A DNA stretch of 64,000 bases from Brevibacillus agri (lineage in GTDB: Bacteria > Bacillota > Bacilli > Brevibacillales > Brevibacillaceae), in contig NZ_CP026363.1 in assembly GCF_004117055.1 (NCBI RefSeq), positions 3,340,001 through 3,404,000 on the forward strand. The letters run 5' to 3'. The position numbers were made by a program, and so were the translations under genes. Under the pieces are notes generated by a model, which saw only the letters and a program-made list of their open reading frames with translations, did not search any database and had not been told where the DNA came from. This document shows positions 13,533-49,248 of the stretch, one piece after another. Numbering within the stretch: the first letter of the stretch is position 1; each line of letters opens with the position of its first letter.

Positions 13533-14987
13533 TGAGCACTTTGCATAATTCCATTTTCGAGAAAAAGACAACAGATTTATATGGCCTGTGGTTGGTTTCA
13601 ATGTCGTGATGTGATGGCTTTGGAAAAATGGGCAGACCTGCAGAATTTTCGTCTATGCTGAAAAATTTAAGCTGCGGCTTTGCTTGAATGCTTAACCATG
13701 GCTAGTGCAGAAGCCAGCAATACAATGGCGTTAAGGTACTGGTGCGTTGTGACTTTCTGAATTCCCCAAACGTGCATCGCATCGGCTGTTAGATAGGTTT
13801 TCAAGCGGGAATTGCATCGTTCCACGCTAGTTCTTTCGTTGTACAGTTCTTTCCAACGCTTGCTCTCCCGATGCGGTGTGGAGTAGCGGCGCAGATCACT
13901 GGTTGTATCCACCTTAACGACCATCCCATAATTGGAAGACGAACAAGCGGCCATTCCGAGCGGGCAGTCTACCTTGCCTGTAGCATGGGGACAGCGGAAT
14001 TTCAGAACATCGCCATCCGCTCCCCAATAGGTCATCGGAAAACCCATGGAGCAGCAAGGCGTTCCGTTTGATGTCATGCCGGCAGGCGGCTCTTTCTCAT
14101 TGCGAAGATTCATCGGGATGATCGCCTGTGCTTTCAAATTCCGGGCAGCCTCATAGTTTTTTAGTTGGTCGTACCCAGCATCGAGGACAAAGAAGCTGAC
14201 TTTGGTTTTTGCCGCGACTTGTTCCATCAGATCTGGCGCCATATCGCCGTCATGGACATGAGCCGGTGTCACGGCGAGCGCCATCGGCAGTTCGCTTTTG
14301 GTATCGACGGCGAGATGAAGCTTGTAGCCAAACCACTTCACCTTATTGCCGAAGGAGTCGAACTTGGCACCCCAGTTTGCATTGCCTGTGAGCTCGCTTT
14401 TACGTTTCGGCTGTTTCTTCTCGTAGGCATGGATCGCGGCACTATCGATGGCCACATGACTTCCATCGACGATGCCTTCTTGCTTGCAGCGTGTGACCAG
14501 ATCCTCAAAAAGTCGCTTGACCAGGTCTTTGCTCGTAAGCTCGGCAAAGACGCGGCTCAACGTTGCCACGGAAGGAGCTTTCCGATCAAGCCGAAGTCCG
14601 CATCGATAGCGAAAACGAAGATCCATATCCAGCCGGCGATGTAGGCCAGTGAACGTACTGATATTCTCAAGCGGAGCTGCAAGCAAAGCCCGAAGGATTC
14701 CTTGTCTGCAGTGACCGTCAGCGCCTCGGGGGGAACGGCTTCTCAGTTCTTTGGCGTAAGGACGTAGGTCAAGAGCGCTGAAAAAGATAGGCAATCGTTC
14801 TTTGGATTCAAGTTTTTGCAGTTCCTCGAAGGAAAACAGACTTTCTTGAAGAATATACAAGGTGACTTCCTCCTTTTGGGCGTTTTTGGTTTGGTCACCG
14901 AAAAACTTCTCCAAATTGGGGTGAAGTCCCTTTTTTATCCCTAGAAATCCTTGTGTCTCAAGGGCTCAGATTTCTGCAAAATGCTCA
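13533..14987. mobile_element. IS1182-type insertion sequence
   Basis: Inverted ends TGAGCACTTTGCATAATTC (from 13533) and, on the other strand, TGAGCATTTTGCAGAAATC (from 14987) agree at 15 of 19 positions and enclose a single transposase gene. Length is about 1455 bp. The right end abuts an AT palindrome (TTTTTAAAAAT), in line with the preference of this family for palindromes. No target duplication is clear. The exact ends are uncertain by a few bases. Confidence 0.7.
13667..14860 (-). CDS. DDE transposase, IS1182 family
   Basis: 397 residues from TTG 14860, which has AAAGGAGG eight bases before it and gives the usual family start LYILQESLFSFEELQ. A longer frame with ATG at 14914 also exists. 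The N-terminal DUF772-type domain contains LRPYAKELRSRSPRGADGH. The DDE catalytic core has HVAIDSAAI, FVLDAGYDQ and NERTSVERCNSRLK. A Cys motif sits in the insertion domain (CPHATGKVDCPLG). It appears full length and intact, so the element may be active. Confidence 0.88.
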   Translation of the reverse strand: MYILQESLFSFEELQKLESKERLPIFFSALDLRPYAKELRSRSPRGADGHCRQGILRALLAAPLENISTFTGLHRRLDMDLRFRYRCGLRLDRKAPSVATLSRVFAELTSKDLVKRLFEDLVTRCKQEGIVDGSHVAIDSAAIHAYEKKQPKRKSELTGNANWGAKFDSFGNKVKWFGYKLHLAVDTKSELPMALAVTPAHVHDGDMAPDLMEQVAAKTKVSFFVLDAGYDQLKNYEAARNLKAQAIIPMNLRNEKEPPAGMTSNGTPCCSMGFPMTYWGADGDVLKFRCPHATGKVDCPLGMAACSSSNYGMVVKVDTTSDLRRYSTPHRESKRWKELYNERTSVERCNSRLKTYLTADAMHVWGIQKVTTHQYLNAIVLLASALAMVKHSSKAAA

Positions 14988-19035: not shown

Positions 19036-20154
19036 CTACCGACTTGCCACTTTACGCTTCAAAAAAGGCTCCCGTCCTTCGCGCCCCTGCGTTTTTACCA
19101 AATAGAGCGCGTACTCCAGCGGCCGCCGGATCGCCTGTCTGTACTGCTCGGTCGCGCCCATCTCGCGAAAAATTTCCCGCGCGGGCTTTGGGTTCACTTC
19201 GATCAGCCAGGCGCGTCCATCCACGTCAATCCCGATATCCAGCCCAAACTCGACCATGCGGCCAAAATGTTCCTCCAGCGTCAACGCTGTCTGATAGGCC
19301 AGCTCCTCGCAGTCGCGGACAATCCGGGCAGCGTGGTCCTCGCCGAAGCGCGGGCGCAAGAAATTAAACACCGGAACCGCCTTGCCTCCCCCGTGCAGGT
19401 TCGAGGTCGCGCTGCGCTCCCCGCCCACACGGATGCCATGCCCGGTGATGCTCCACTCGCCTTGCCCGGTTTTCTGGATCAACAGCCGCATGTCCACGGC
19501 GCGCGATGGCACCAGTTGCAGATGCAGCCCCTGCTGGACGATAAACTTTTCCTGTCGCGTCCAGCGATCGGCCCAGCGCTGGACGGCGGAAATGTCCGTG
19601 AAAAAGCTCTGGACCTTCGCCCGCTGCTTGTCGCGTCCCAGCAGCCGATAGCCGCCCCCGCGCTTCTCGATGGAAAAAAGATTGCGCCCGCCCGTCCCGT
19701 TCAGCGGCTTGACGTACAGAAACGAATGTTTGCCCAGCATTTGGACGAGGTTTTTTCTGTTATATAACACAGTTTCCGGCAACCAGCGATGCATGCGCGG
19801 ATCGCGGTGCAGCACTTCGTGGACGCGCCACTTGTTTGCCAACCGATTGTTTGCGTATAAAAAATCGCTGGTGCGGCGAAAAGCGACGTAGTCTTTGAAC
19901 GCTTGCGTCGGCGTATAGCGGTAGCGGTCGAACACGGCGTCCGGGCGAGGGAACAGGCGTCCTTGCCATTTGCCCTGCGCATCCAGGACGTATCCTCTCA
20001 CCTGCTTGCCCGAGGCCAGTACATCCTTGGGCGAAAACAAAAAAACGGTGCAGCCCAGTTCTTGTCCTGCCTTGAGCAGTCGCCGGAAATAGGTCGGCTC
20101 TGCGAAGCGTTTGCCCTCCCGCCAAGTCAAGATGCCGATTGTGGGTCGTTTCAT
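19036..20154 (-). CDS. YheC/YheD-like ATP-grasp protein (spore coat-associated)
   Basis: 372 residues. It starts with PTIGILTWREGKRFAEPTYF and has the ATP-grasp core of YheC/YheD proteins: YVKPLNGTGGRNLFSIEK (ATP-binding loop), VDMRLLIQKTGQG, GGGKAVPV and the metal-binding end DIGIDVDGRAWLIEVNPKP. YheC and YheD are spore coat-associated in Bacillus subtilis; the ligase reaction is unknown. The ATG at 20154 is preceded by GGGTGG. It lies upstream of no obvious partner; the next gene on this strand is a pseudouridine synthase 60 bases upstream. Confidence 0.85.
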   Translation of the reverse strand: MKRPTIGILTWREGKRFAEPTYFRRLLKAGQELGCTVFLFSPKDVLASGKQVRGYVLDAQGKWQGRLFPRPDAVFDRYRYTPTQAFKDYVAFRRTSDFLYANNRLANKWRVHEVLHRDPRMHRWLPETVLYNRKNLVQMLGKHSFLYVKPLNGTGGRNLFSIEKRGGGYRLLGRDKQRAKVQSFFTDISAVQRWADRWTRQEKFIVQQGLHLQLVPSRAVDMRLLIQKTGQGEWSITGHGIRVGGERSATSNLHGGGKAVPVFNFLRPRFGEDHAARIVRDCEELAYQTALTLEEHFGRMVEFGLDIGIDVDGRAWLIEVNPKPAREIFREMGATEQYRQAIRRPLEYALYLVKTQGREGREPFLKRKVASR

Positions 20155-35791: not shown

Positions 35792-35829
35792 AAAAAGCTG
35801 AGCTTCTCCTGCGGAAAAGTCAGCTTTTT
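35792..35829 (-). terminator. Terminator of the polysaccharide cluster
   Basis: AAAAAGCTGA (35792-35801) and TCAGCTTTTT (35820-35829). The second arm overlaps the last codons of the UDP-glucose dehydrogenase gene. Confidence 0.75.
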
Positions 35830-37106
35830 CCTACGCCCACATAGCGAAATCCGGCTTCCTTGACGATTTTGGCCGGCCACGCATTGCGTCCGTCCAGCAA
35901 AACGGGCTGGGCCATCTTTTGGTAGACCTGTTCCCAATCGAGCTGCACGCACTCTTTCCACTCGGTAATTAAAAGCGCGGCATGTGCGCCTTGCACGGCT
36001 TCTTCGGCTGTCTTGGTGTACGTAACGTTCGGAAACTTCTGCCGCACGGCGTCGGTTGCGATCGGATCGTAGGCGAAAACCGCAGCTCCCTTTTCCTCCA
36101 GCGCTTGCAGGACGGCCAGGGACGGCGCCTCGCGAATGTCGTCCGTATCCGGTTTGAACGCCAATCCGAGTACCGCGATCCGCTTGCCGCGACAGTCCGG
36201 AACGAACGGTTGCAACTGCTGCAAAAACCAGACGGGCTGCGTGGCGTTGACTTTGCGCACTTGCTCCAAAATACCGAGCGAGATGCCGTTTTGCGCAGCG
36301 AGCTGCAGCAAGGCAATCGTGTCTTTCGGAAAACAGGATCCGCCATAGCCGACGCCCGCCCGCAAAAACTCCGGCCCGATCCGGCTGTCCAGCCCCATGC
36401 CGTGCGCGATCGTCACGATATCGGTTCCCAGTGCCGCGCTCAGCCGCGCCAGCTCATTCATGAAAGAAATGCGCGTCGCCAAAAAGGCGTTGGAGGCGTA
36501 CTTAATCAGTTCGGCGTTCGCGCGGGTCGTGACCACGCGCGGAGCGTCCACCCCCTTGTACAGCTCCTCCATGACCTCTCTCGTTTCCGGCTCGCCCGCT
36601 CCAATGACAATCCGCGAAGGCGCCAGCGCGTCGTACAGCGCACTGCCCTCTCGCAGAAACTCCGGATTGGACGCGACCGACAGCTCCCTGCAGCCGCTGA
36701 GCAGCTCGGCAACCTTGTCGCCCGTCCCCACTGGCACCGTGCTTTTGACGACTACGACTCGCCTTTTCGGGGAGGCTTGATGCATCTGTTCGATCGCAGC
36801 TACGGCACTGTACAAATAGCGCAAATCGGCGGTCCCGTCAGCCGCTTCCGGAGTGCCGACGCAAACAAAGAAAACGTCCGCGTCTGCTGCCTCCTGCAGC
36901 TTCGTGGAAAAAGCGAGGGTGCCGTTTTCCAGCACCTGTTTCAGCGCTTCCTCCAACCCGGGCTCGTAGATGGGCGAGATTCCTTGCCTCAGTTTGACAA
37001 TTTTGGCTTCGACCAGATCGATGCCGATCACCTGATGGCCGTTCATGGCCAGGGAGACAGCGGTTGTCAGCCCTACGTAGCCGGTACCGATAACGGCAAC
37101 TTTCAT
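35820..37106 (-). CDS. ugd: UDP-glucose 6-dehydrogenase
   Basis: Oxidises UDP-glucose twice to UDP-glucuronate with NAD. The 428-residue protein has the N-terminal GTGYVGLTTAVSLA, VCVGTPEAADG and KSTVPVGTG. The hinge lysine is in ELIKYASNAFLATRISF and the catalytic Cys258 in YGGSCFPKD. ATG 37106 is preceded by GAGG seven bases away. Last gene of the cluster. With the upstream epimerase it would supply glucuronate- or galacturonate-type sugars for the glycosyltransferases. Confidence 0.93.
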   Translation of the reverse strand: MKVAVIGTGYVGLTTAVSLAMNGHQVIGIDLVEAKIVKLRQGISPIYEPGLEEALKQVLENGTLAFSTKLQEAADADVFFVCVGTPEAADGTADLRYLYSAVAAIEQMHQASPKRRVVVVKSTVPVGTGDKVAELLSGCRELSVASNPEFLREGSALYDALAPSRIVIGAGEPETREVMEELYKGVDAPRVVTTRANAELIKYASNAFLATRISFMNELARLSAALGTDIVTIAHGMGLDSRIGPEFLRAGVGYGGSCFPKDTIALLQLAAQNGISLGILEQVRKVNATQPVWFLQQLQPFVPDCRGKRIAVLGLAFKPDTDDIREAPSLAVLQALEEKGAAVFAYDPIATDAVRQKFPNVTYTKTAEEAVQGAHAALLITEWKECVQLDWEQVYQKMAQPVLLDGRNAWPAKIVKEAGFRYVGVGKS

Positions 37107-37115
37107 CACTTCACC

Positions 37116-38192
37116 TCATCGTTTTTTCATCACACGCAAATAAAGCTCCTCCAGTTTGAGACGCTGCTGGTGAATATCGTGGTTTTTCTCCACCTTCATC
37201 CTCGCCCGCGCCGTCATTTCCGGCCATTCGTGCGCGGATGCGAGCACGTGGTTTATCATCCGTCCGAGCTTCGCCGGAGAGCGCTCCGGGACGAGATAGC
37301 CGGACTCCCCGTGCTCCACCAGTTCGGGAATGCCCGCGTGATACGTCGAAATGACGGGCCTGCCGGACGCCATCGCTTCCATCAGCACGTTCGGGATGCC
37401 TTCCTGGTCGCCGTTTTTGGCCGTTTTGCAGGCGATGACAAACAGATGGCATCGCGCCAGCTCGCGCTGCACCGCTTGATGCGGCAAAGCGCCCTTGAGG
37501 ACGACTTGCTTTTCCAGCTTGTATTTTTTAATCATGCTGCGCAGCTTTTTCTTTTTCTCGCCGTCGCCGACGATAATCAGCTTGGCCTTCGGATGCTTTT
37601 TGTGCACCTGCACGAACGCCTGGATTAACGTGTCCATGCCTTTTTTCTCCGTCAGGCGGCCAACGCTGAGCAGCCGGTACTCGCCATCGTGGACCGGCTG
37701 GGGCGGCAGCATCGGAAATTTGCGCAGATCAATGCCGGAGCGGATCAGCGTGATTTTGTCGCCCGAGCAGCCCAGGCGGATCAGCCGCTTTTTCATATGA
37801 TTGCTGACGACGGTAAACGCCTTGCCTTTGCGAAACAGTCGCTTCAGCGAGCGGCGATAGCCCGGATTTTCCCGCACGCGCTTGGTCGCATCGAAGCCGT
37901 GAAAAGAAGTAATCAACGGCAGTCCCGCCTTTTTGGCGTACGGAAGCAGCTCCAGGCCAGCCGGGCCAAACCGCGCATGCAAGCATTTGATCTTTTTTCG
38001 CTTCAGCCACCCGGAGAGGCCCGCCATTGCCTTGCGCACATAGACCGGCGAGTACGGAAACTGTTTGCGGTTGAACGGCCGCTGTCTGGTCAGCACGACA
38101 GGTTTGACTCTCTGGTGCCCAAGCAATTGCTCGTAGATGAAGGTTTCGCTTCGGGGCAGGAATTTTCTCCGATAGACGAGGACCCGATGCAT
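37116..38192 (-). CDS. Glycosyltransferase family 4
   Basis: 358 residues. GT-B fold with the C-terminal nucleotide-sugar block of GT4 enzymes: LLSVGRLTEKKGMDTLIQAF, KLIIVGDGEKKKKL and the E-x7-E site in DQEGIPNVLMEAMASGRPVI. Basic overall. Nine bases separate it from the next gene (ugd) and 25 from the previous, so it is in the operon. The acceptor and sugar are unknown; the cluster context suggests a surface or spore polysaccharide. Confidence 0.9.
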   Translation of the reverse strand: MHRVLVYRRKFLPRSETFIYEQLLGHQRVKPVVLTRQRPFNRKQFPYSPVYVRKAMAGLSGWLKRKKIKCLHARFGPAGLELLPYAKKAGLPLITSFHGFDATKRVRENPGYRRSLKRLFRKGKAFTVVSNHMKKRLIRLGCSGDKITLIRSGIDLRKFPMLPPQPVHDGEYRLLSVGRLTEKKGMDTLIQAFVQVHKKHPKAKLIIVGDGEKKKKLRSMIKKYKLEKQVVLKGALPHQAVQRELARCHLFVIACKTAKNGDQEGIPNVLMEAMASGRPVISTYHAGIPELVEHGESGYLVPERSPAKLGRMINHVLASAHEWPEMTARARMKVEKNHDIHQQRLKLEELYLRVMKKR

Positions 38193-38217: not shown

Positions 38218-39168
38218 TTAGCTCCTCGGCTGAAAACGCATATCCGCCAACTGCCGACGAAGCCCCTCTTCCAAGGAAACTTGCGGACGGTAGCCCAGGC
38301 GCTGCTCAGCCAGCCGAATGTCCGCGCAAGTGCGCAGCGAGTCGCCTGCCGGACCGGGCTGAAAGCTGATTTTCGGCGAGATGTTCATCAGCGTGCCCAT
38401 GATGTTCAGCACGTCGATCAATTTTACTTCACGATTTCCACCTACATTGAATATCTCGCCGGGTGCAGCGTGGCGCCCCGCCAATATGTTTGCCTCTACG
38501 GCGTCCGTAACGTAGGTAAAGTCTCGCGATTGCTGCCCATCTCCGTAAACGACGACGGGATCTCCCTTCATCATTTGCCGGAAAAAGCGGTGAAAAGCCA
38601 TGTCCGGCCGCTGTCTCGGGCCGTACACGGTAAAGTAGCGCAGCATCGTGATCGGCAGTCCGTACGCTTTGACGTAGACGGAGCACACCTGCTCCATCGC
38701 TTCCTTCGTGACGCCATAAGGCGATACGGGACGCAGCGGAGCAGATTCGTCCGTTAGCGTCCCTTGCATCGTGCCGTACACAGAAGAGGAAGAAGAGACG
38801 ACGATGACAGGCGGTTTTGGCCTTTGCATGCACGCCTCCAGAAGCAGTTGGGTAGCCAAAATATTGTGACTGACGTACTCCGCGAATGCCTTGCCCCAAC
38901 TGTTCCGCACGCCGGGCAGCGCAGCCAGGTGATAGACCACATCTACTCCGTCCAGCCAGTCTTTCCACCGCTCTGCCTGCAGCATGGTTGAATGAAAAGT
39001 AAAGGCGGGATGGCTCCCGATCTCTGCGAGATTGCGGAGTTTGGCAGCAACGTCGTAGTTATCGACGAAGCCGTCGATGCCGATCACTGTCACCCCGTCA
39101 TTTAGCAAGCGCTGGGTCAGATGCGACCCGATAAAACCAGCACAACCGGTGACAAGTGCTTTTGTCAT
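38218..39168 (-). CDS. NAD-dependent nucleotide-sugar epimerase
   Basis: 316 residues of the extended SDR family. It has the nucleotide-binding GCAGFIGSHLTQRLL, DVVYHLAALPGVRNSWGK and SSSSSVYG (catalytic Ser/Thr). The active-site Tyr and Lys are in SPYGVTKEAMEQ, and LRYFTVYGPRQRPDMAFHRF completes the core. The AALPGVR/PRQRPDMA pattern is that of UDP-glucuronate 4-epimerases, consistent with ugd in the same operon. ATG 39168 overlaps the stop of the GT2 gene by four bases. Confidence 0.88.
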   Translation of the reverse strand: MTKALVTGCAGFIGSHLTQRLLNDGVTVIGIDGFVDNYDVAAKLRNLAEIGSHPAFTFHSTMLQAERWKDWLDGVDVVYHLAALPGVRNSWGKAFAEYVSHNILATQLLLEACMQRPKPPVIVVSSSSSVYGTMQGTLTDESAPLRPVSPYGVTKEAMEQVCSVYVKAYGLPITMLRYFTVYGPRQRPDMAFHRFFRQMMKGDPVVVYGDGQQSRDFTYVTDAVEANILAGRHAAPGEIFNVGGNREVKLIDVLNIMGTLMNISPKISFQPGPAGDSLRTCADIRLAEQRLGYRPQVSLEEGLRRQLADMRFQPRS

Positions 39169-39968
39169 CGCTTCCGCCGCCTCACTTTCTTCAACCGTTT
39201 AATGACGAGATAGCCATCCTTGTAGCCGTAGACCGCTTTGTATTTGTTGCCCCAGCGTTTGAGGTAATAATTGAACGTTTTTTTGCGTAAATGATTGCGT
39301 CTCCGCTTCATCTTGTTGTCGGTAAGCTGTCCTTTGTGCTTCGTCCGGTTGTACAGCTTGCGATTGATAAACCGGACGCGGTATTTTTCAATCAGCCGCA
39401 AAATGATGCGCCGATCCTCCATGATTCGGCCTTCGTATTTGTCGGAGGTATCCCAACCTCCGACCTCCCGAAGCGCTTCGACCCGATAGCAGCGCGGCGC
39501 CACCATCCAGCGGTTGTACTTCAAAAACTGGTATTTGTTGCGAAAATGCTTGTGCTTGACGAGAAACGGGTTGTAGTATTTCCCGCGCCGCACTCGCCAT
39601 ATTTTGACGTTGCCGTAGTAGAGCGCTGTACTTTTTTTACTCTTGCGAATGTACTTTTTAATGACAGCCAGCGTCCGTTTTGGCAGCCAATCGTCCGAAT
39701 CAAGCTGCAAAAGGTATGGCGTGTCGACCATAGACAAGGCCTGATTCATCACTTTTCCGATGCCGGAGTTTTGTTCCATCCGGTAGTACATGATGTTCGG
39801 ATGGTACAAATACTTCTCTACCTTTTTCCTCGTCTTGTCGGTAGAGGCATCGTCAATGATTAACAGCTTCCAGTCTTTTGTCGTCTGCTTCAAGACACTG
39901 TTGATCGCTTTGCGGATGAACTTGGCGCGATTGTACGTCGGGATGACCACAGTAAAGGTTGGGTTCAT
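39165..39968 (-). CDS. Glycosyltransferase family 2
   Basis: 267 residues of GT-A fold: TVVIPTYNRAKFIRKAINS, LLIIDDASTDKT, and the metal-binding D-x-D in LLQLDSDDWLPKR. The unusually basic C-terminus (KMKRRRNHLRKK, VRRRKR) is a trait of the coat-type GT2 enzymes of bacilli. Both ends overlap neighbours by four bases (ATGA), so translation is coupled with the nucleotidyltransferase upstream and the epimerase downstream. Confidence 0.9.
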   Translation of the reverse strand: MNPTFTVVIPTYNRAKFIRKAINSVLKQTTKDWKLLIIDDASTDKTRKKVEKYLYHPNIMYYRMEQNSGIGKVMNQALSMVDTPYLLQLDSDDWLPKRTLAVIKKYIRKSKKSTALYYGNVKIWRVRRGKYYNPFLVKHKHFRNKYQFLKYNRWMVAPRCYRVEALREVGGWDTSDKYEGRIMEDRRIILRLIEKYRVRFINRKLYNRTKHKGQLTDNKMKRRRNHLRKKTFNYYLKRWGNKYKAVYGYKDGYLVIKRLKKVRRRKR

Positions 39969-41011
39969 GTGTCCTCCCTCTTCACGGCTGGAATGCGAAT
40001 CGATGACTTGTCGCTTAAAATGAAGACACCGCTCGAATTGGCTGACTGTCCTGTCAAATGAGACGACCTTCCGAAAACGCTGTCCGTAACGCTCCAGGCG
40101 ACGTCCATGAGCGAGCTGTTTTCCAACAGGATGCTGTTCTCAATGTGCGCACAATTTTTCAGATGCACCCCGTTTTGAATCGAAACGTACGGACCGAGCC
40201 GGCAATTTTCAATGTGACAGTCTTCCCCGATCAGCACAGGTCCGATAATCTCGCAGTTTGTGACGACGGACCTTTGGCCAATCTGGTGAGTCTGACCCAA
40301 ATCTTTTGCCAGCATCCAACGGTTTGCCTCCAGCCAACGATCAATGGTTCCCACATCGGAATACTTGCCGCTCGTAAGTGCATGCGCAATATGAAAACCG
40401 CGATCAATCATGGACTGGATCGCATCCGTGATTTCATATTCACCACGGGCGGATGGCTGCAGTGTAGCAATCGACTCAAAAATGGGTGGGGTAAACAGGT
40501 ATGCGCCAATGACAGCCAGATTGCTCTTCGGCTGACGAGGTTTTTCTTCCACGGAGACCAGACGCCCTTCCTGTACTTCGGCAATCCCATAATCCTGTGG
40601 TCTCTCCACTTCACTTAGCATCACAACACCGTCTGATTTTTCACTGGTAAACGCACGCATTAGCCCGTGCAGCGAATCCATCAACAAGTTGTCACCAAGT
40701 AACAAGATAAACGGTTCGTCTTGCAAGAACGGGTGCGCTAAATGGACAGCATGTGCGATTCCAAGCGGCACCTCCTGCTCGATAAAAGTAATGGTAGCCC
40801 CAAATTGACTACCATTGCCCACCAAGGGAGGAATCTGCACTTGGGAAGGGTGGATGACGATGCCGATGTCATGCACACCCACTTCACGCAGTTTGCTGAT
40901 GCAGTAGTGTAATACCGGATGATTGGCCACAGGGAGGAGGGTTTTTGGTTGCGAATAGGAAAAGGGGTGCAGTCGCGTACCACGTCCAGCACACAAGATT
41001 AACCCTTTCAC
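39965..41011 (-). CDS. Sugar-phosphate nucleotidyltransferase (long RmlA-type)
   Basis: 348 residues from GTG 41011 (GGGGAG site eight bases before). The N-terminal pyrophosphorylase domain has GLILCAGRGTRLHPFSYSQP, the sugar-binding LLGDNLLMD and VSVEEKPRQPKSN. The C-terminal half has left-handed beta-helix repeats (IIGPVLIGEDCHIENCRLGP, SIQNGVHLKNCAHIENS). This is the glucose-1-phosphate thymidylyltransferase-like long form found with coat and S-layer glycan genes. It is the second gene of the cluster; the 120-base gap before it shows no promoter I can defend. Confidence 0.88.
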   Translation of the reverse strand: MKGLILCAGRGTRLHPFSYSQPKTLLPVANHPVLHYCISKLREVGVHDIGIVIHPSQVQIPPLVGNGSQFGATITFIEQEVPLGIAHAVHLAHPFLQDEPFILLLGDNLLMDSLHGLMRAFTSEKSDGVVMLSEVERPQDYGIAEVQEGRLVSVEEKPRQPKSNLAVIGAYLFTPPIFESIATLQPSARGEYEITDAIQSMIDRGFHIAHALTSGKYSDVGTIDRWLEANRWMLAKDLGQTHQIGQRSVVTNCEIIGPVLIGEDCHIENCRLGPYVSIQNGVHLKNCAHIENSILLENSSLMDVAWSVTDSVFGRSSHLTGQSANSSGVFILSDKSSIRIPAVKREDT

Positions 41012-41133
41012 AAGTATCACTCCCCAGTTGTGCTCTGCGATACTTATAAGGTATGCGCCTCATGATATCTGGACAGGGCAGACGTCCACCTGGCACAAAG
41101 AAAGGGCAATAACCTAGCGGCTGGACAAGTGAA

Positions 41134-42312
41134 TCATCCCGTTTTGAGCAGCGGCTGCTTTTCTTTTGGCTTCTTGCCGACCACGCTTTCAAACACATTC
41201 AAATAGCCTTGCGCCGTGGCGTACCAGGAGAATTGCTTTGCGCGAAGCAATGCCTGTTTGCCCATTTCCGTGCGCACGTGCGGCGTGCTCCAGAGCAGCT
41301 CCCAGATGGCGGGCAGTTCTTTTTCCCACTCTTTGGGCGGAATCAGGAACCCGCTGCCTTGATGGGTGACAACCTCCTTGATCCCGCCCCGCGTCGTGGA
41401 AATGACAGGCTTGCTCGATGCCATCGCCTCGAGGTTGACGCGGCAAAAGGCCTCCTTCCAGATCGAGGGTGTCGCCACGACATCGCCAATCTGGTAATAC
41501 AGCGGCATCTGCGCGCTGGGGACGAAATTGACGAAGCGTACTTTGTCGCCGAGCGGCTTCGCCAGCCGTTTCAGCTCGCGCACGTACGGATTTAAGCGAT
41601 TGCTGCCGTAGCCGGTTCCGCCGACGATGACGAGCCGCGCGCGAGGGTCTTGCTTGCTGACCTGGTGAAACGCCTTGATGAGAATGTGGACGCCTTTTCC
41701 CCGCATGAGCCTTCCCGCGTAAAACAAAACGCGGTCATCCGCTGCTAGGCCGATCTGTTTGCGCAGCTTTTTGATCGTGTAATGCAGCTTTGCCACCTGG
41801 TACGGCGACACGTCTACCCCGAGATGCACGGCGTGAATTTTGTGTGGAGGAATTTTGCACGCCTTGATAAAATGCTGGCGCAAAAACTCGCTGTTCGTAA
41901 TAAATCCGGACGACAGCCGGACGACCCGCTTCATTTTTTCCTTGCTAATCATGGCGGGAGAGCCGTAGACGTGCGAATGCATGTTGACGAAAACCGGAAT
42001 TTTGGGAAAATGCTTTTTGAGTTGCAAGACGTAAATCGGCCGATTTTCGACGAGAATGACATCCGGTTTATGCTTGCGAATATGCTTGATGATCTTGCGC
42101 AAATAAGGCGTTGGACCATCGTAGGGGAAGCGAATGAACTCCCGGTTGTCCTCCACGGACGACGTTGGGTAGGTCGTACAGCGTCGGGTGTAGATCGTCA
42201 CTTTGTGCTCGGGATCGATCATCTTCGTCACTTCGTCGATGTCGTGCTCCACCGAGCTGCCTTTGACGGGTGGCACGGAAAAGGGCCCCGGGCTAATTAT
42301 GGCGATGTTCAT
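41134..42312 (-). CDS. Glycosyltransferase family 4 (CotSA-like)
   Basis: 392 residues. It starts MNIAIISPGPFSVPPVKGSS, as CotSA-type spore coat glycosyltransferases do. The GT4 core is VLFYAGRLMRGKGVHILIKA, ARLVIVGGTGYGS and the E-x7-E site in WKEAFCRVNLEAMASSKPVI. First glycosyltransferase of the cluster. Its start overlaps the coiled-coil gene by 20 bases. CotSA is a coat protein in Bacillus subtilis; the same location here is an inference. Confidence 0.88.
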   Translation of the reverse strand: MNIAIISPGPFSVPPVKGSSVEHDIDEVTKMIDPEHKVTIYTRRCTTYPTSSVEDNREFIRFPYDGPTPYLRKIIKHIRKHKPDVILVENRPIYVLQLKKHFPKIPVFVNMHSHVYGSPAMISKEKMKRVVRLSSGFITNSEFLRQHFIKACKIPPHKIHAVHLGVDVSPYQVAKLHYTIKKLRKQIGLAADDRVLFYAGRLMRGKGVHILIKAFHQVSKQDPRARLVIVGGTGYGSNRLNPYVRELKRLAKPLGDKVRFVNFVPSAQMPLYYQIGDVVATPSIWKEAFCRVNLEAMASSKPVISTTRGGIKEVVTHQGSGFLIPPKEWEKELPAIWELLWSTPHVRTEMGKQALLRAKQFSWYATAQGYLNVFESVVGKKPKEKQPLLKTG

Positions 42313-42721
42313 TACGCTCGCTCTCCCACTCCTTTTTCAAGGAAAGAACCACCTGATACAAATATTGCCTTTCTTTGGCCTGCTCTTCCTCGGCTTTTTT
42401 CCACCGTTTTTCCCAGGCGGCAAGCGACTCCTTCAAGGCGGCAACCTCCTGCTCCAGCTTCTCCAGTTGCTCGGTCGTCACCACGTCGGTTTCTCTCATC
42501 ATGATCTCGAACTTCGGCTCCAGCACCAGCTCTCGCGCCTCTGCGGGCTGCTCGCAAGCGGTCTGTTCCGTCGCTGTCGCTTTTTCCACGGCGGCCTCCT
42601 GTCCTTTTTCACCGGGTTTCACAATCGAGATGCGCTCTACCGCTTCATCGACCACAAAATGGCCAGAAAAGACTCCTGGCGTGACCCAATGCGGCAGATC
42701 CCATTTTTTGCGTTTTTCCAT
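42293..42721 (-). CDS. Coiled-coil hypothetical protein
   Basis: 142 residues from ATG 42721 with GCAGGAGGG. The N-terminal 45 residues include WDLPHWVTPGVFSGHFV. The middle is Ala/Glu-rich, and residues about 90-140 form one long charged coiled coil (EQLEKLEQEVAALKESLAAW). No signal or membrane part. It is translationally linked to the CotSA-like gene. It may be a scaffold of the same surface structure, but this is only from position. Confidence 0.75.
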   Translation of the reverse strand: MEKRKKWDLPHWVTPGVFSGHFVVDEAVERISIVKPGEKGQEAAVEKATATEQTACEQPAEARELVLEPKFEIMMRETDVVTTEQLEKLEQEVAALKESLAAWEKRWKKAEEEQAKERQYLYQVVLSLKKEWESERNEHRHN

Positions 42722-42807
42722 AAGTCTTCCCTCCTGCAACGTGCTTCTACGTAATATGCTATGACAAACGCGGAAAATGGGTACGTGTACATAGGAGACA
42801 GACAATA

Positions 42808-45113: not shown

Positions 45114-47552
45114 CTAGCCGTTCACGTCGTCTGTATCCTCTGTGTCGCCAGCCGCTTCGCCGTCGAGTTCGCCCCCTTCTTCTTCGCTGTGATCTTCATC
45201 GGCTTCGCCGTCGCTCTCGTCCCACTCATCCTCCAGGACGTTTTCCTCGTGTCGGTGCAGATGCAGGGCAGAAACCTCATCGTGCACAGGCTCTCCCTTT
45301 TCCCCGACTGCAATCCATTGCAGCACTCCGCTGTCTTCCTGCTCTGTCTCATGGCGAAAAACAGTCAGTACGGCCGACGTGCGCTTTGTGTACTTCAGCG
45401 AAACCGACACTCCTGCCTGATTCGTCATCGCCACCAGGCAATAGTGCGTATCGGCATACGGTAGCGGCACGCGCACGGTGACATCTGCCGTCTGGCGCTG
45501 CGCCGGGATGCGGAACGGGACAAAGCCGAATTGCTGCAACGTCGTCCCGATGCGGCCTAGAGTCTCTACGGCTTGAAAAGCGAGCTTTTCCTGCGTGATC
45601 GACTTGTCGGCAAGGTGCTCTTCGGCAATCGCCCGCGGCGCAATTTTCGCTTTCGTGACCGCATGATCGGCCAGCTTTTCCTCGCTGACAGCGTGCTTTT
45701 GCAGATGCTGCCCCTCGATGGATTGCGCAGCGAGATGTTCGCCAGACAGCGTTCCTTTCGCGAGATGCTCGCCGTTCAGGCTGCCCTTTTCTACATGCTT
45801 GCCTGTGATCGCATGCAAATCCAGCTTGCTTCCGTCGACAGCGTGATCGGCCAGCTTGTCGCGGGTGACGCTGCCCTCCTGCAATTTTTCCTTCGAGATC
45901 GCTTTCGGCTGGATGTGCTCGTTCTGCACGGATTGATTGGCGAGATGCTGGGACGACACCGCTTTTTCCGCGATCTTCTCGCCCGTGACGGCTCCCTTGC
46001 CCAGATGCCTCGCCTTGATCGCGTCTTTCGCCAGTTTGGGGGCAGTCACAGCAGCATCGGCGAGCTTGTTGGCGGTGATGCTCAGATCGGTCACCTTGTC
46101 TGTCGAGACGGACTCCGGCGCAAGCTTCGAGGTAGTGACGACGTGCTCGTGCAAATGCTGGGTTTGAATCGCGTAATCCCGCAGATGGTTGCTGCCGATG
46201 ACGCGATCGGTCAAATGCTGTTCTTCAATCGAGCGCCGCGCTATTTTTTCCGCGCAGATGGCCCCGTCTGCCAAATGCCTCGTGTTGACGCTCTCTTCGA
46301 TCAACTGCTGGTCGCCCACGCTTCTGTTCGCCAATTTATCGACCGTGACGGCCCTGTCAGCGATTTTTCCTGTCGTGACCTGCTGCTCCCCGATTTTTCG
46401 CGCGGTCACCTGCCCATCCTGCAAGTGGCTCGTCTGGATGCTGCCAGCCTGAATGTGTACGCTGCCAATCGATTCTTTGGCGACTTTTTCCGACGTGACG
46501 CTCGCATGGTCGAGATGCTCGGTCAGGACGGCATACGGGCTGATTTTGTCGCTGGTGACCGCCTCCGACTGCAGATGCTGGCTGTAGATGGCGTGAAAGG
46601 CGATATGCTGGTCCGTTACGCAGCCGAGCGCGATATTGTCGCCATCCACGCTGTTCTCCGCCAGATGATGACGCAAAATAGCCCTTTCGCGAATATGCTG
46701 GGACTCGACTGCATCTTCCTCCAACTTGGTCGAGGTCACCGCCCCGTCGCGAATTTTGTCCGTCGTGACTGCGCCGTCCTCCAGCTTGACGGAGTTAATC
46801 ACGTAATTGGCGAGGTTCCGTGTCTGAATGCTGCCCATCTTGATTTTATCCGAGGTGACAGACTGGTCCTGGAGCAGCTCTGTCGTAATCGCCTGCTCCT
46901 GGATATGCTTGGTCTGGATCGCTGCTTCGGCAAACTTCATCGAGTCAATCGTCTTGTCAGCGAGCTTCTCGGAAGTAATGCTGTTGTTGACCAGCTTTTG
47001 ACCGCTAATCGAATGGTCCTGCACATTGTCGCTCGTGATGACATGGCGCCCCAGATGTTCGCCCAAAACGGCGCCGGGCGCAATTTTGTTCGAGGTCACG
47101 CTCTTGTCCGCAAGCTTGGTGCTGTCCACGGCGTAATCTTTCAGCAGCGCGGTATCAATCGTCCCCGGTTTGATTTTGGAGGAATCGACAGCTCGATTGG
47201 CGATTTTCTCCGTGGTGACAGACTGATCCGTCAAGTCGTCGGTGTAGACAAACGATTGTACCCTGTCGTCGTTGCGCTCCTTGATAATTTTCGAAAAGGT
47301 CGTCTGATTCGAGGACGCCCCCTGCTTGGGCATTTTCTGCAGCGGCTGTTGCAGTGGACTTTTGGCTGCGTGGGCGCTTGGCTTCGCGCTGTTGACAGGT
47401 TCGCTCTCCGAAAGCTCCAGCTCCAGTTCCAGATCAGCCACCCAGTCGCGCTCCACCGTAGAAGAAGTTTGCATCAGCGGAATTTCATGCAGCGTCTGCC
47501 GAAATGTTTTTCCCAGACCTTTGCTCGTTTTTTTTCGGTTCACATTCGCCAT
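45114..47552 (-). CDS. Decapeptide-repeat surface protein with WIAG-like tail
   Basis: 812 residues, ATG 47552 with AGGAGG upstream. Residues 1-110 are a basic, then Ser/Glu/Gln-rich, N-terminal part without a signal peptide. Residues 111-660 are exactly 55 consecutive ten-residue repeats without insertion or deletion. The pattern is roughly [AS]-[VI]-T-[ST]-x-[KH]-[LI]-A-[DE]-x, for example SVTTEKIANR, AVTSTKLEED and SIEGQHLQKH. Residues 661-775 form a globular beta domain with LQWIAVGEKG, similar to the WIAG-tail of repetitive proteins of Paenibacillus. The last 40 residues are Asp/Glu-rich. Such repeats make beta-solenoid fibres in phage tails and surface proteins. The lack of a signal suggests assembly from the mother-cell side, as on a spore surface. 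Confidence 0.88.
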   Translation of the reverse strand: MANVNRKKTSKGLGKTFRQTLHEIPLMQTSSTVERDWVADLELELELSESEPVNSAKPSAHAAKSPLQQPLQKMPKQGASSNQTTFSKIIKERNDDRVQSFVYTDDLTDQSVTTEKIANRAVDSSKIKPGTIDTALLKDYAVDSTKLADKSVTSNKIAPGAVLGEHLGRHVITSDNVQDHSISGQKLVNNSITSEKLADKTIDSMKFAEAAIQTKHIQEQAITTELLQDQSVTSDKIKMGSIQTRNLANYVINSVKLEDGAVTTDKIRDGAVTSTKLEEDAVESQHIRERAILRHHLAENSVDGDNIALGCVTDQHIAFHAIYSQHLQSEAVTSDKISPYAVLTEHLDHASVTSEKVAKESIGSVHIQAGSIQTSHLQDGQVTARKIGEQQVTTGKIADRAVTVDKLANRSVGDQQLIEESVNTRHLADGAICAEKIARRSIEEQHLTDRVIGSNHLRDYAIQTQHLHEHVVTTSKLAPESVSTDKVTDLSITANKLADAAVTAPKLAKDAIKARHLGKGAVTGEKIAEKAVSSQHLANQSVQNEHIQPKAISKEKLQEGSVTRDKLADHAVDGSKLDLHAITGKHVEKGSLNGEHLAKGTLSGEHLAAQSIEGQHLQKHAVSEEKLADHAVTKAKIAPRAIAEEHLADKSITQEKLAFQAVETLGRIGTTLQQFGFVPFRIPAQRQTADVTVRVPLPYADTHYCLVAMTNQAGVSVSLKYTKRTSAVLTVFRHETEQEDSGVLQWIAVGEKGEPVHDEVSALHLHRHEENVLEDEWDESDGEADEDHSEEEGGELDGEAAGDTEDTDDVNG
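45573..47222 (-). repeat. 55 tandem 30-bp coding repeats
   Basis: Codes residues 111-660 of the decapeptide-repeat protein. The period is exactly 30 bases through 1650 bases. The copies are diverged in DNA, so the array is old and kept by selection on the protein. Confidence 0.9.
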
Positions 47553-47667
47553 AGAGTCTCCTTGCCTCCTGATGTCATTCCCGTATCATTGTGTAACATA
47601 TTCAACCCATAGGCTTTTGGCACCGCTCCGCGAAATTTGTTTCCCCACGCGCGCTCGCCACGCATGC

Positions 47668-47712
47668 CAAAAAACCTGCCAAACCAACGGCAATCGTTGG
47701 CTGGCAGGTTTT
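47668..47712. terminator. Strong bidirectional terminator after the FtsH-like gene
   Basis: AAAACCTGCCAaaCCAACG (47671-47689) pairs with CGTTGGcTGGCAGGTTTT (47695-47712), five-base loop. Confidence 0.85.
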
Positions 47713-47733: not shown

Positions 47734-49248
47734 TTACGACACAGCCGCTTCCTGTCTCGTCTGGGACAAAAGGGCTCTAAACTCATCGCCTTGCAGGACT
47801 TCCGTTTCCATCAGCGTGCCCAGACCTGTCTGGAAAACAGCGTCATACTGTCTGAGCAGGCTGCGCGTATCCTCCAGCAGACGGGAGAGCAGCCGATCCA
47901 CTTCGTCGTGAATCCGGTTTTTGTCGACGTACTGCAAATGCACGATCCCGAGGTCGGACATCCCGCTGGAAACGATTTCCTGCGCCATGCCCAGCGCTTG
48001 TTCGAAGTCGTTTTTGGAGCCGGTACTGCGTCCGCCGTAGTAGATTTCTTCTGCAACCGCTCCGGCCAGACTGACCATGATCTGGTTTTCCAACGCTTCT
48101 CTGGTGTACAGATAGCGGTCTTCCATCGGATTTTGCCGGACGTAGCCGAGCGCCTTGCCGCGCGGGCTCAGCGTGACTTGCGAGACTGAGCCTGGGCGCA
48201 CCACTTCGCTCACGATCGCGTGGCCCAGCTCGTGCAGCGCTACCCGCTTTTTCTCTTCCTCGGAAGCCTGGCGGTCGACTTTTTCGCCGAGCATGACCTT
48301 GTCTACGGCGTAGGCAAAATGCTTCGCCATGATCTTGTCGCTTTTGTCGCGCATAGCGTAAATCGCTGCCTCGTTCGCGACGCTTTCCAGTTGCGCACCG
48401 GAGAAGCCGAACGTCTCTTGCGCCACTTTTTCTAAAACGACATCTGGTCCAAGCGGCTTGTTCGCCGTATGAATGGTCAAAATCTGCTCGCGTGCAGGCT
48501 TGTCAGGCAAATCTACGGTAATGTGACGGTCAAAACGGCCTGGTCGAAGCAGCGCTGCATCGAGCATGTCTTTGCGGTTCGTCGCAGCCATGACCAGAAT
48601 GCGCGGCTTGTCACTCGTCGCCACCCCGTCCATCTCGGTCAAAAGCTGGTTCAAGGTCTGGTCGTACTCCCGCTGCTGCTGACCATCCCGTTTTCCCCCG
48701 ACGACATCAATCTCGTCGATAAAAATAATCGCGCTGTCCTGTCCATTTTTCTCCGCCATCGTCTTCGCTTCTTTAAACAGCTCGCGCACGCGCTGCGCCC
48801 CGACCCCTACGTACATCTCCACGAACTGGGAGCCGGAAGCCGCCACGAACGCCGAGTTGGTGTAGTTCGCTGCGGCTTTTGCCATCAATGTTTTCCCTGT
48901 ACCGGGAGGCCCGGTCAACAGCACGCCTTTGATCGGGCGAATGCCGTACTGCTCGATCTTGTCTTTGTACACGAGAAAGTCAAGCGATTCCTTCAGCTCT
49001 TTTTTGGCCCGCTCCTGACCGCCGATGTCGGCAAACTGCACGTCCGACTTCGGAATTTCGTGCTTGTTCTGCTTTCGTTTGCCGCCGAGCGCGACATTGC
49101 CTCCCTGTCCGCTTTGCTGGCGAACGACGAGGAAGTAAATCGCGCCCAGCACAGCGGCGAACAGCACAAAGGGCGTAATGTTCACCCCTAGAAACACGAG
49201 AAAAACCAACACCGCAGGAACGACGCCGATCAGCAGCTCTTTACCCAC
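47734..49248 (-). CDS. FtsH-like AAA metalloprotease, short N-terminus
   Basis: 504 residues. Two membrane segments at about 5-20 and 26-42 separated by only a few residues (GVNITP). Then the AAA domain: Walker A GPPGTGKT (113-120), Walker B AIIFIDEID, second region AATNR, RPGRFDR. The zinc protease domain has HELGH at 339-343. FtsH normally has about 600-650 residues, an extracellular domain of some 70 residues between the two membrane segments, and HEAGH; here that domain is missing and the tail is short. It is a paralogue, not the main FtsH. It overlaps the upstream membrane protein gene by 8 bases. Confidence 0.88.
   Translation of the reverse strand: MGKELLIGVVPAVLVFLVFLGVNITPFVLFAAVLGAIYFLVVRQQSGQGGNVALGGKRKQNKHEIPKSDVQFADIGGQERAKKELKESLDFLVYKDKIEQYGIRPIKGVLLTGPPGTGKTLMAKAAANYTNSAFVAASGSQFVEMYVGVGAQRVRELFKEAKTMAEKNGQDSAIIFIDEIDVVGGKRDGQQQREYDQTLNQLLTEMDGVATSDKPRILVMAATNRKDMLDAALLRPGRFDRHITVDLPDKPAREQILTIHTANKPLGPDVVLEKVAQETFGFSGAQLESVANEAAIYAMRDKSDKIMAKHFAYAVDKVMLGEKVDRQASEEEKKRVALHELGHAIVSEVVRPGSVSQVTLSPRGKALGYVRQNPMEDRYLYTREALENQIMVSLAGAVAEEIYYGGRSTGSKNDFEQALGMAQEIVSSGMSDLGIVHLQYVDKNRIHDEVDRLLSRLLEDTRSLLRQYDAVFQTGLGTLMETEVLQGDEFRALLSQTRQEAAVS

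Follow-up and report, generated by a model that had tools for sequence, protein, structure and literature searches.

A WIAG-tail protein of Brevibacillus built on a phage-fibre plan, a probable spore-surface fibre

BclA filaments, ENA and the fibres of phages and tailocins are the described systems with which the protein studied here is compared. BclA has an N-terminal anchor region, a long and variable shaft of collagen Gly-X-Y repeats, a C1q-like jelly-roll tip and glycosyltransferase genes as neighbours (in part from the accessible text of PMC11952670). ENA and F-ENA are polymers of small DUF-domain subunits, and the R-type pyocin fibre, gp53 of Acinetobacter phage AP22 and gp49 of LKA1 have a discoidin/H-type-lectin tip. 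The protein in question, named for its WIAG-tail domain, is encoded in a 64,000-nucleotide stretch of Brevibacillus agri contig NZ_CP026363.1 (positions 3,340,001 to 3,404,000; hereafter the window). The host is a soil bacterium; among named species, B. gelatini (85%) and B. parabrevis (83%) stand nearest to it.

The gene is present once in the host genome (45114..47552, (-) strand, as are all its parts; open reading frame call, profile search and repeat count) and specifies 812 residues. A hydrophilic N-terminal region, a candidate anchor by hydropathy and alignment (residues 1–102; 47247..47552), is followed by a cap, YTDDLTDQ, that is kept in orthologues and precedes the first repeat (residues 103–110; 47223..47246), a presumed shaft of decapeptides (residues 111–660; 45573..47222), the WIAG-tail domain as presumed distal tip (residues 672–751; 45300..45539) and an acidic tail (residues 757–812; 45117..45284), with 25 Asp/Glu and one Lys/Arg among residues 756–812. 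This order of anchor region, long variable repetitive shaft and jelly-roll tip, with glycosyltransferase genes nearby, resembles that of BclA, but the shaft is made of decapeptides instead of Gly-X-Y and the predicted tip fold is not C1q-like. Unlike ENA, the protein has a shaft of its own within a single long chain, and a Pfam scan reported no ENA-type DUF domain in it; an exosporium leader was covered by the Pfam and NCBIfam scans only. We consider it likely that this is a spore-surface fibre of Brevibacillus, laid out like a phage tail fibre and used like BclA filaments. A literature search, thin on subscription journals, returned no account of what WIAG-tail proteins do, and the only paper found with the term uses it, in its accessible part, as a label for a virus gene (PMC12085832).

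The decapeptide array and its register

Residues 111–660 form exactly 55 units of ten residues with no insertion and no deletion. The preliminary description of this DNA had called the units perfect repeats; their number and register stand, while the units themselves have diverged. All 55 differ, with a mean pairwise identity of 2.65 positions in ten and a maximum of 7, and Tandem Repeats Finder detects no array here. The consensus is (A/S)(V/I)(T)(S/T)(E/Q)(K/H)(L/I)(A)(D/E)x, with V/I/L at position 2 in every unit and at position 7 in 54, and K/R/H at position 6 in 49. Serine or threonine occupies positions 1, 3 and 4 in 23, 28 and 29 units, respectively, and makes up 90 of the 550 residues. 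No array was recovered from any of five shuffles of the region.

The register was followed through 60 orthologues (that of the window, 25 more from the genus, 10 from the rest of the family and 24 from elsewhere in the class) with a tracker that permits steps of 6 to 15 residues. Over 5,029 units, two steps differed from ten, both in one protein (G288). All 48 proteins that have both the cap and a closing KLxF motif space the two at 3 modulo 10 (12 of the 60 lack one; G288 was matched through an internal cap). Whole-protein database homologues are less regular (122 irregular steps in 2,961 units among the 120 listed of 450 matches), part of which may reflect the poorer fit of a scoring matrix built from the window protein. 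Units correspond one by one between species: the same-numbered unit is the best partner for 53 of 55 in B. parabrevis (G016), 40 in G005 and 38 in G007. Because units are conserved individually, the array has not been homogenised but is an old ruler kept in step. With indels nearly absent over about 5,000 units, the presumed shaft would be an unusually strict structural ruler.

In 58 of the 60 orthologues the array has between 46 and 211 units; of the other two, one ends at a contig edge (G054) and one has no array (G029). The latter, at the same position in the gene order (L067, 7247-8296, +), is a protein of 349 residues that keeps the N-terminus and the WIAG domain with no repeats, so the shaft can be lost while the domain stays. 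The open frames in G137 and G168, two genomes of the same genus, are just 386 and 378 residues long and may resemble it. In G346, of family f4 (see below), a frame of 4,588 codons spans the WIAG domain. Opposite the array in the window, a frame of 679 codons is open over its whole length (45573-47612, (+)); it is probably not a gene and arises as a by-product of the codon pattern of 30 bases.

AlphaFold2, applied to monomers only, gave the repeat region block-mean predicted local distance difference test (pLDDT) values of about 30-68, with one short helical turn per ten residues and no strands. The beta-solenoid put forward in the preliminary description is thus rejected, as neither AlphaFold2 model supports it. 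Searched against solved structures, the repeats matched orf16 of 9eg4 (1.8e-4; 5.7e-5) and the fibre of cyanophage P-SCSP1u (8i4m, 1e-4), the distal part of which is unresolved in that structure according to the accessible text of PMC10575957.

The WIAG-tail domain and its kinship with phage fibres

The C-terminal domain matches the full NCBIfam model NF012201 (WIAG-tail) with 101.5 bits against a cut-off of 33, which bears out an earlier assignment as WIAG-like followed by an acidic tail. Its predicted structure has six strands in a jelly roll, and the domain is predicted with high confidence to fold like discoidin and the H-type lectins. By structure comparison, this is the fold of phage fibre tips. 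At the level of sequence, no H-type lectin model matched any of the 22 C-terminal pieces searched at E <= 1, while 12 of the 22 matched the Gp53-like_C model (the window protein with 16.1 bits, under the cut-off of 24.9) and two matched the Decapeptide repeat model PF25296 weakly (best 0.006). Both NF012201, whose cut-off is passed, and PF25296 are names without assigned function; for the former, the present reading, if right, supplies a fold and a role that can be tested. Taken alone, the WIAG part gave no match among 83 candidates in the protein database, and a WIA-G motif near the C-terminus occurs in none of the 120 listed of 450 whole-protein matches, which are relatives of the repeats.

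Loops L1 and L5, at the predicted free end of the domain, are the most variable (mean frequency of the commonest residue 0.32 and 0.41, against 0.55-0.76 in the strands), with L3 at 0.59 and the proximal loop L4 also low at 0.45. This weakly favours exposure of the predicted tip.

The repeats match phage tail-fibre families of the PHROG collection (phrog_892 at 2.5e-94 over 11 stretches; phrog_28766 at 4.3e-85) and 87 phage records. The kinship with phage tail fibres claimed in the preliminary description is thereby upheld, as is, through the predicted tip fold, a fibre-like architecture. A tblastn search of 50,697 phage records did not find the WIAG domain itself, and no relative came up in either of two viral_contigs scans; one viral protein, CpV-BQ1, is annotated with the domain in the accessible part of PMC12085832. 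Spread by plasmids was rejected, with no WIAG match among 72,556 plasmid records. The gene does not belong to a phage structural module: it has housekeeping neighbours in a conserved order. In contrast to phage and tailocin fibre genes, it is chromosomal, vertically kept and preceded by a conserved element resembling a sporulation-type promoter.

Distribution, promoters and the reading as a spore fibre

All 26 genomes of the genus and all 10 others from the family carry WIAG, mostly at the same place. Among 299 genomes sampled across the class, SpoIVA was detected in 209 (206 over the cut-off) and WIAG in 79, all of which carry SpoIVA; none of the 90 SpoIVA-less genomes has WIAG. The domain occurs in 12 of 43 SpoIVA-bearing families, most sampled sporulating families being without it. 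In one family, f4, it is found in 172 of 180 SpoIVA genomes and in none of 16 that lack SpoIVA; these 16 belong to one genus and may represent a single loss.

Upstream of the fibre gene lies a sigma-K-like promoter, GTGCC-N15-GAATANNNTA (47594..47623, (-)), and a second, GTACC-N15-TCATANNNTA (42755..42784, (-)), heads a glycosyltransferase operon farther downstream; the label follows the sigma-K consensus. Of 35 family genomes, 32 have the pattern GTRCC-N15/16-GAATANNNTR at 64-76 nt 5' of the start codon, including 7 of the 9 that lie outside the genus. For the operon, GTACC-N14/16-xCATANNNTA is present in the window and in 26 of the 31 relatives searched; among those from outside the genus the count is 3 of 7. 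Block-shuffled upstream regions match at 0.00014 and 0, respectively. A sigma-70-type scan found nothing upstream of the fibre gene on its strand. The spacing between the -35 and -10 elements (15 +/- 1 nt) fits that of B. subtilis sigma K in the accessible text of PMC517825.

As a reference, yabG was dropped after 13 of 13 genus genomes gave no match. We took dpaA instead, which is under sigma K in B. subtilis. In the 13 genomes it has a block resembling TCACC (TAACC in one genome, TCACA in another), 15-16 nt from GAATANNATG and about 100 nt 5' of the start codon; the comparison is a soft one, since a second conserved block lies nearer to the start codon. The regions upstream of spoIVA (16 of 18 loci located) show a different arrangement that resembles the sigma-E consensus. 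A terminator-like hairpin with a T run (47676..47693, (-)) sets the fibre gene apart from the ftsH-like gene upstream; it comes from a scan that was near chance (4 found, 3.4 in shuffles); the glycosyltransferase operon stands behind a hairpin of its own.

Certain neighbours recur beside WIAG genes elsewhere. At 23 loci from ten other families, YheC/D-like ATP-grasp genes occur at 15, SpoVR at 6, glycosyltransferases at 8 and any of the three at 16, compared with any at 2 and SpoVR at none of 20 control stretches, which were drawn from these genomes other than G048, G052 and G092; the YheC/D, SpoVR and GT2 models were seeded from these same loci. The association of WIAG proteins in relatives with glycosyltransferase genes, raised in the preliminary description, thus holds for other families, at 8 of the 23 loci only. 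The SpoIVA-bound distribution, the sigma-K-like promoters and these neighbours together link the protein to the spore, in agreement with the spore side of the earlier surface proposal. The mother-cell route without a signal peptide, likewise proposed earlier, is supported by the promoter and by hydropathy. The window protein has no membrane-helix-like 19-residue window (Kyte-Doolittle maximum 0.74), and by hydropathy alone, with no signal-peptide predictor run, signal peptides and membrane helices are absent from all 60 orthologues, whose highest values are 0.59 for the N-terminal part and 1.57 for the chain as a whole.

Late in sporulation, the mother cell would transcribe the fibre gene from the conserved sigma-K-like element. 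Synthesis would take place in the compartment that surrounds the forespore, so that no signal peptide would be needed. The hydrophilic N-terminus may anchor the fibre in the coat or exosporium, and the decapeptides would form the shaft, most likely with three chains intertwined as they are in phage fibres and with a register that tolerates almost no indel. The WIAG-tail domain would sit at the distal end as a trimeric tip and bind a glycan, either that of the spore itself or one on a surface or host, and the operon of the same promoter class probably builds a spore glycan on or near the fibre.

Several observations weigh against a spore fibre. The shaft model is of low confidence and supports neither a beta fold nor a trimer. 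By the test set in the preliminary description, in which a disordered or helical repeat region speaks against a fibre, this result counts on the negative side; we read it as a monomer prediction failing on what is probably an intertwined trimer. WIAG is missing from 130 of the 209 SpoIVA genomes of the class sample and from 8 of 180 in f4; all three neighbour types are missing at 7 of the 23 outside loci, and one orthologue (G029) has no array. The genomes are akin, so p-values of the distribution and neighbour tests overstate independence. The promoter patterns were written after many of these sequences had been seen, and only conservation speaks for them, because genome-wide they are no commoner than reversed controls (2 against 2 for the fibre gene, 4 against 5 for the operon, with one off-target match inside spo0F). 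Spore-envelope proteomics of B. laterosporus lists four major proteins, ExsC, CHRD, CpbA and CpbB, in the accessible text of PMC5335551, and the WIAG protein is not among them.

Three other explanations were weighed. That the gene is a tail-fibre gene left behind by a prophage or tailocin would account for the PHROG and phage-record matches of the repeats and for the tip fold. We rejected it on gene order and breadth of occurrence, and hold it to be highly improbable: the neighbours are asnS, dnaD, ftsH-like, rex and dinG-like genes, with no phage genes, the gene keeps its place across genus and family, and the WIAG domain is absent from the phage records and viral contigs searched, the CpV-BQ1 annotation being the exception. 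A fibre of the vegetative cell surface, or an intracellular scaffold unrelated to spores, would be in keeping with the other surface layers that Brevibacillus cells bear. The hydropathy of all 60 orthologues, the restriction of WIAG to SpoIVA genomes, including its loss in the SpoIVA-less genus of f4, and the sigma-K-like promoter make it unlikely.

A third possibility keeps the protein in the spore but places it in the inner coat, the repeats serving as spacer or scaffold and the WIAG domain as a trimer clamp only. The YheC/D and SpoVR neighbours, being coat or cortex-assembly genes, fit this, as do the array-less G029 protein and the shell that YheD builds round the B. subtilis spore (accessible text of PMC7911427). 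The wide range of array lengths and the variable free-end loops, L3 and L4 aside, both argue weakly for exposure instead, and we regard an inner-coat role as quite unlikely.

The surface fibre may also have a history. Tentatively, we propose that spore-forming Bacilli domesticated a phage tail fibre early on and made it a dedicated spore adhesin, with a trimeric decapeptide shaft of lineage-set length, an H-type-lectin tip and mother-cell co-expression with its own glycosyltransferase operon. If so, spores would recognise a glycan, be it their own or that of a mate or host, in the way a phage recognises its host, and the fibre would add a third spore-filament architecture to the collagen fibres of BclA type and ENA. 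If the fibre reading is right, a filament type made from phage parts, for which we found no functional description, occurs on spores of Brevibacillus, Paenibacillus, Aneurinibacillus, Ammoniphilus and Alicyclobacillus relatives. The natural ladder of shafts, from 46 to >200 rungs, could show how filament length and lectin tip set spore adhesion.

The glycosyltransferase operon and neighbouring genes

The operon (all (-) strand) begins behind dnaD with a coiled-coil-like gene, cc170 (42293..42721, start ATG 42721), followed by genes assigned with Pfam, in three cases also NCBIfam: a GT4 glycosyltransferase (41134..42312), a sugar-1-phosphate nucleotidyltransferase (RmlA long form; 39965..41020; both), a GT2 glycosyltransferase (39165..39968), an NDP-sugar epimerase/dehydratase (38218..39168; both), a second GT4 glycosyltransferase (37116..38192) and a UDP-glucose 6-dehydrogenase-like nucleotide sugar dehydrogenase (35820..37109; both). 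The first operon gene lies 2.4 kb downstream of the fibre gene and the first glycosyltransferase gene (end 42312) 2.8 kb.

The block GT4-rmlA-GT2-(epimerase)-GT4-ugd is found downstream in 23 of 25 genus relatives, two of them without the epimerase; G023 has GT4 and part of rmlA only, and the contig of G024 stops short of it. Other genera of the family often keep the fibre-gene order with the block missing or partial (G026, G027, G028, G029, G032, G033, G034, G035), and the loci of G030 and G031 have no gene of this downstream region. In G174, from the family including Ammoniphilus, the same block directly encloses the WIAG gene, without asnS or dnaD. At 7 of 8 f4 loci, the WIAG gene is followed on the same strand by three GT2 genes and a nucleotidyltransferase (with three intervening genes at two loci and two at one). 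The earlier remark on glycosyltransferases about 2.4 kb away is therefore right for the window and recurs in other families, yet several genera keep the protein without the block. Given the block at G174, the glycosyltransferase genes at the f4 loci and the lack of the block in several genera of the family, the linkage arose or was kept more than once and is not obligatory. The cc170 gene keeps its sigma-K-like promoter in genera without the glycosyltransferase block (G032, G035; G028 with rmlA only), and may itself encode a coat protein.

In most of the family, two genes remain adjacent to the fibre gene, one for an FtsH-like protease (47734-49248, (-); 461.9 bits against an FtsH cut-off of 600, model positions 113-531 only) and one for a 180-residue protein without Pfam match. 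The window also contains a YheC/D-like ATP-grasp gene (19036-20154, (-); PF14398, 5e-83), akin to those found beside the fibre gene in other bacterial families. In two families, a GNAT acetyltransferase gene lies between YheC/D and WIAG genes (L113, 18110-18577, (-); L115, 15019-15480, (-)). Elsewhere in the window, a frame of 415 residues (13667-14914, (-)) appears transposase-like, as judged by eye from its translation.
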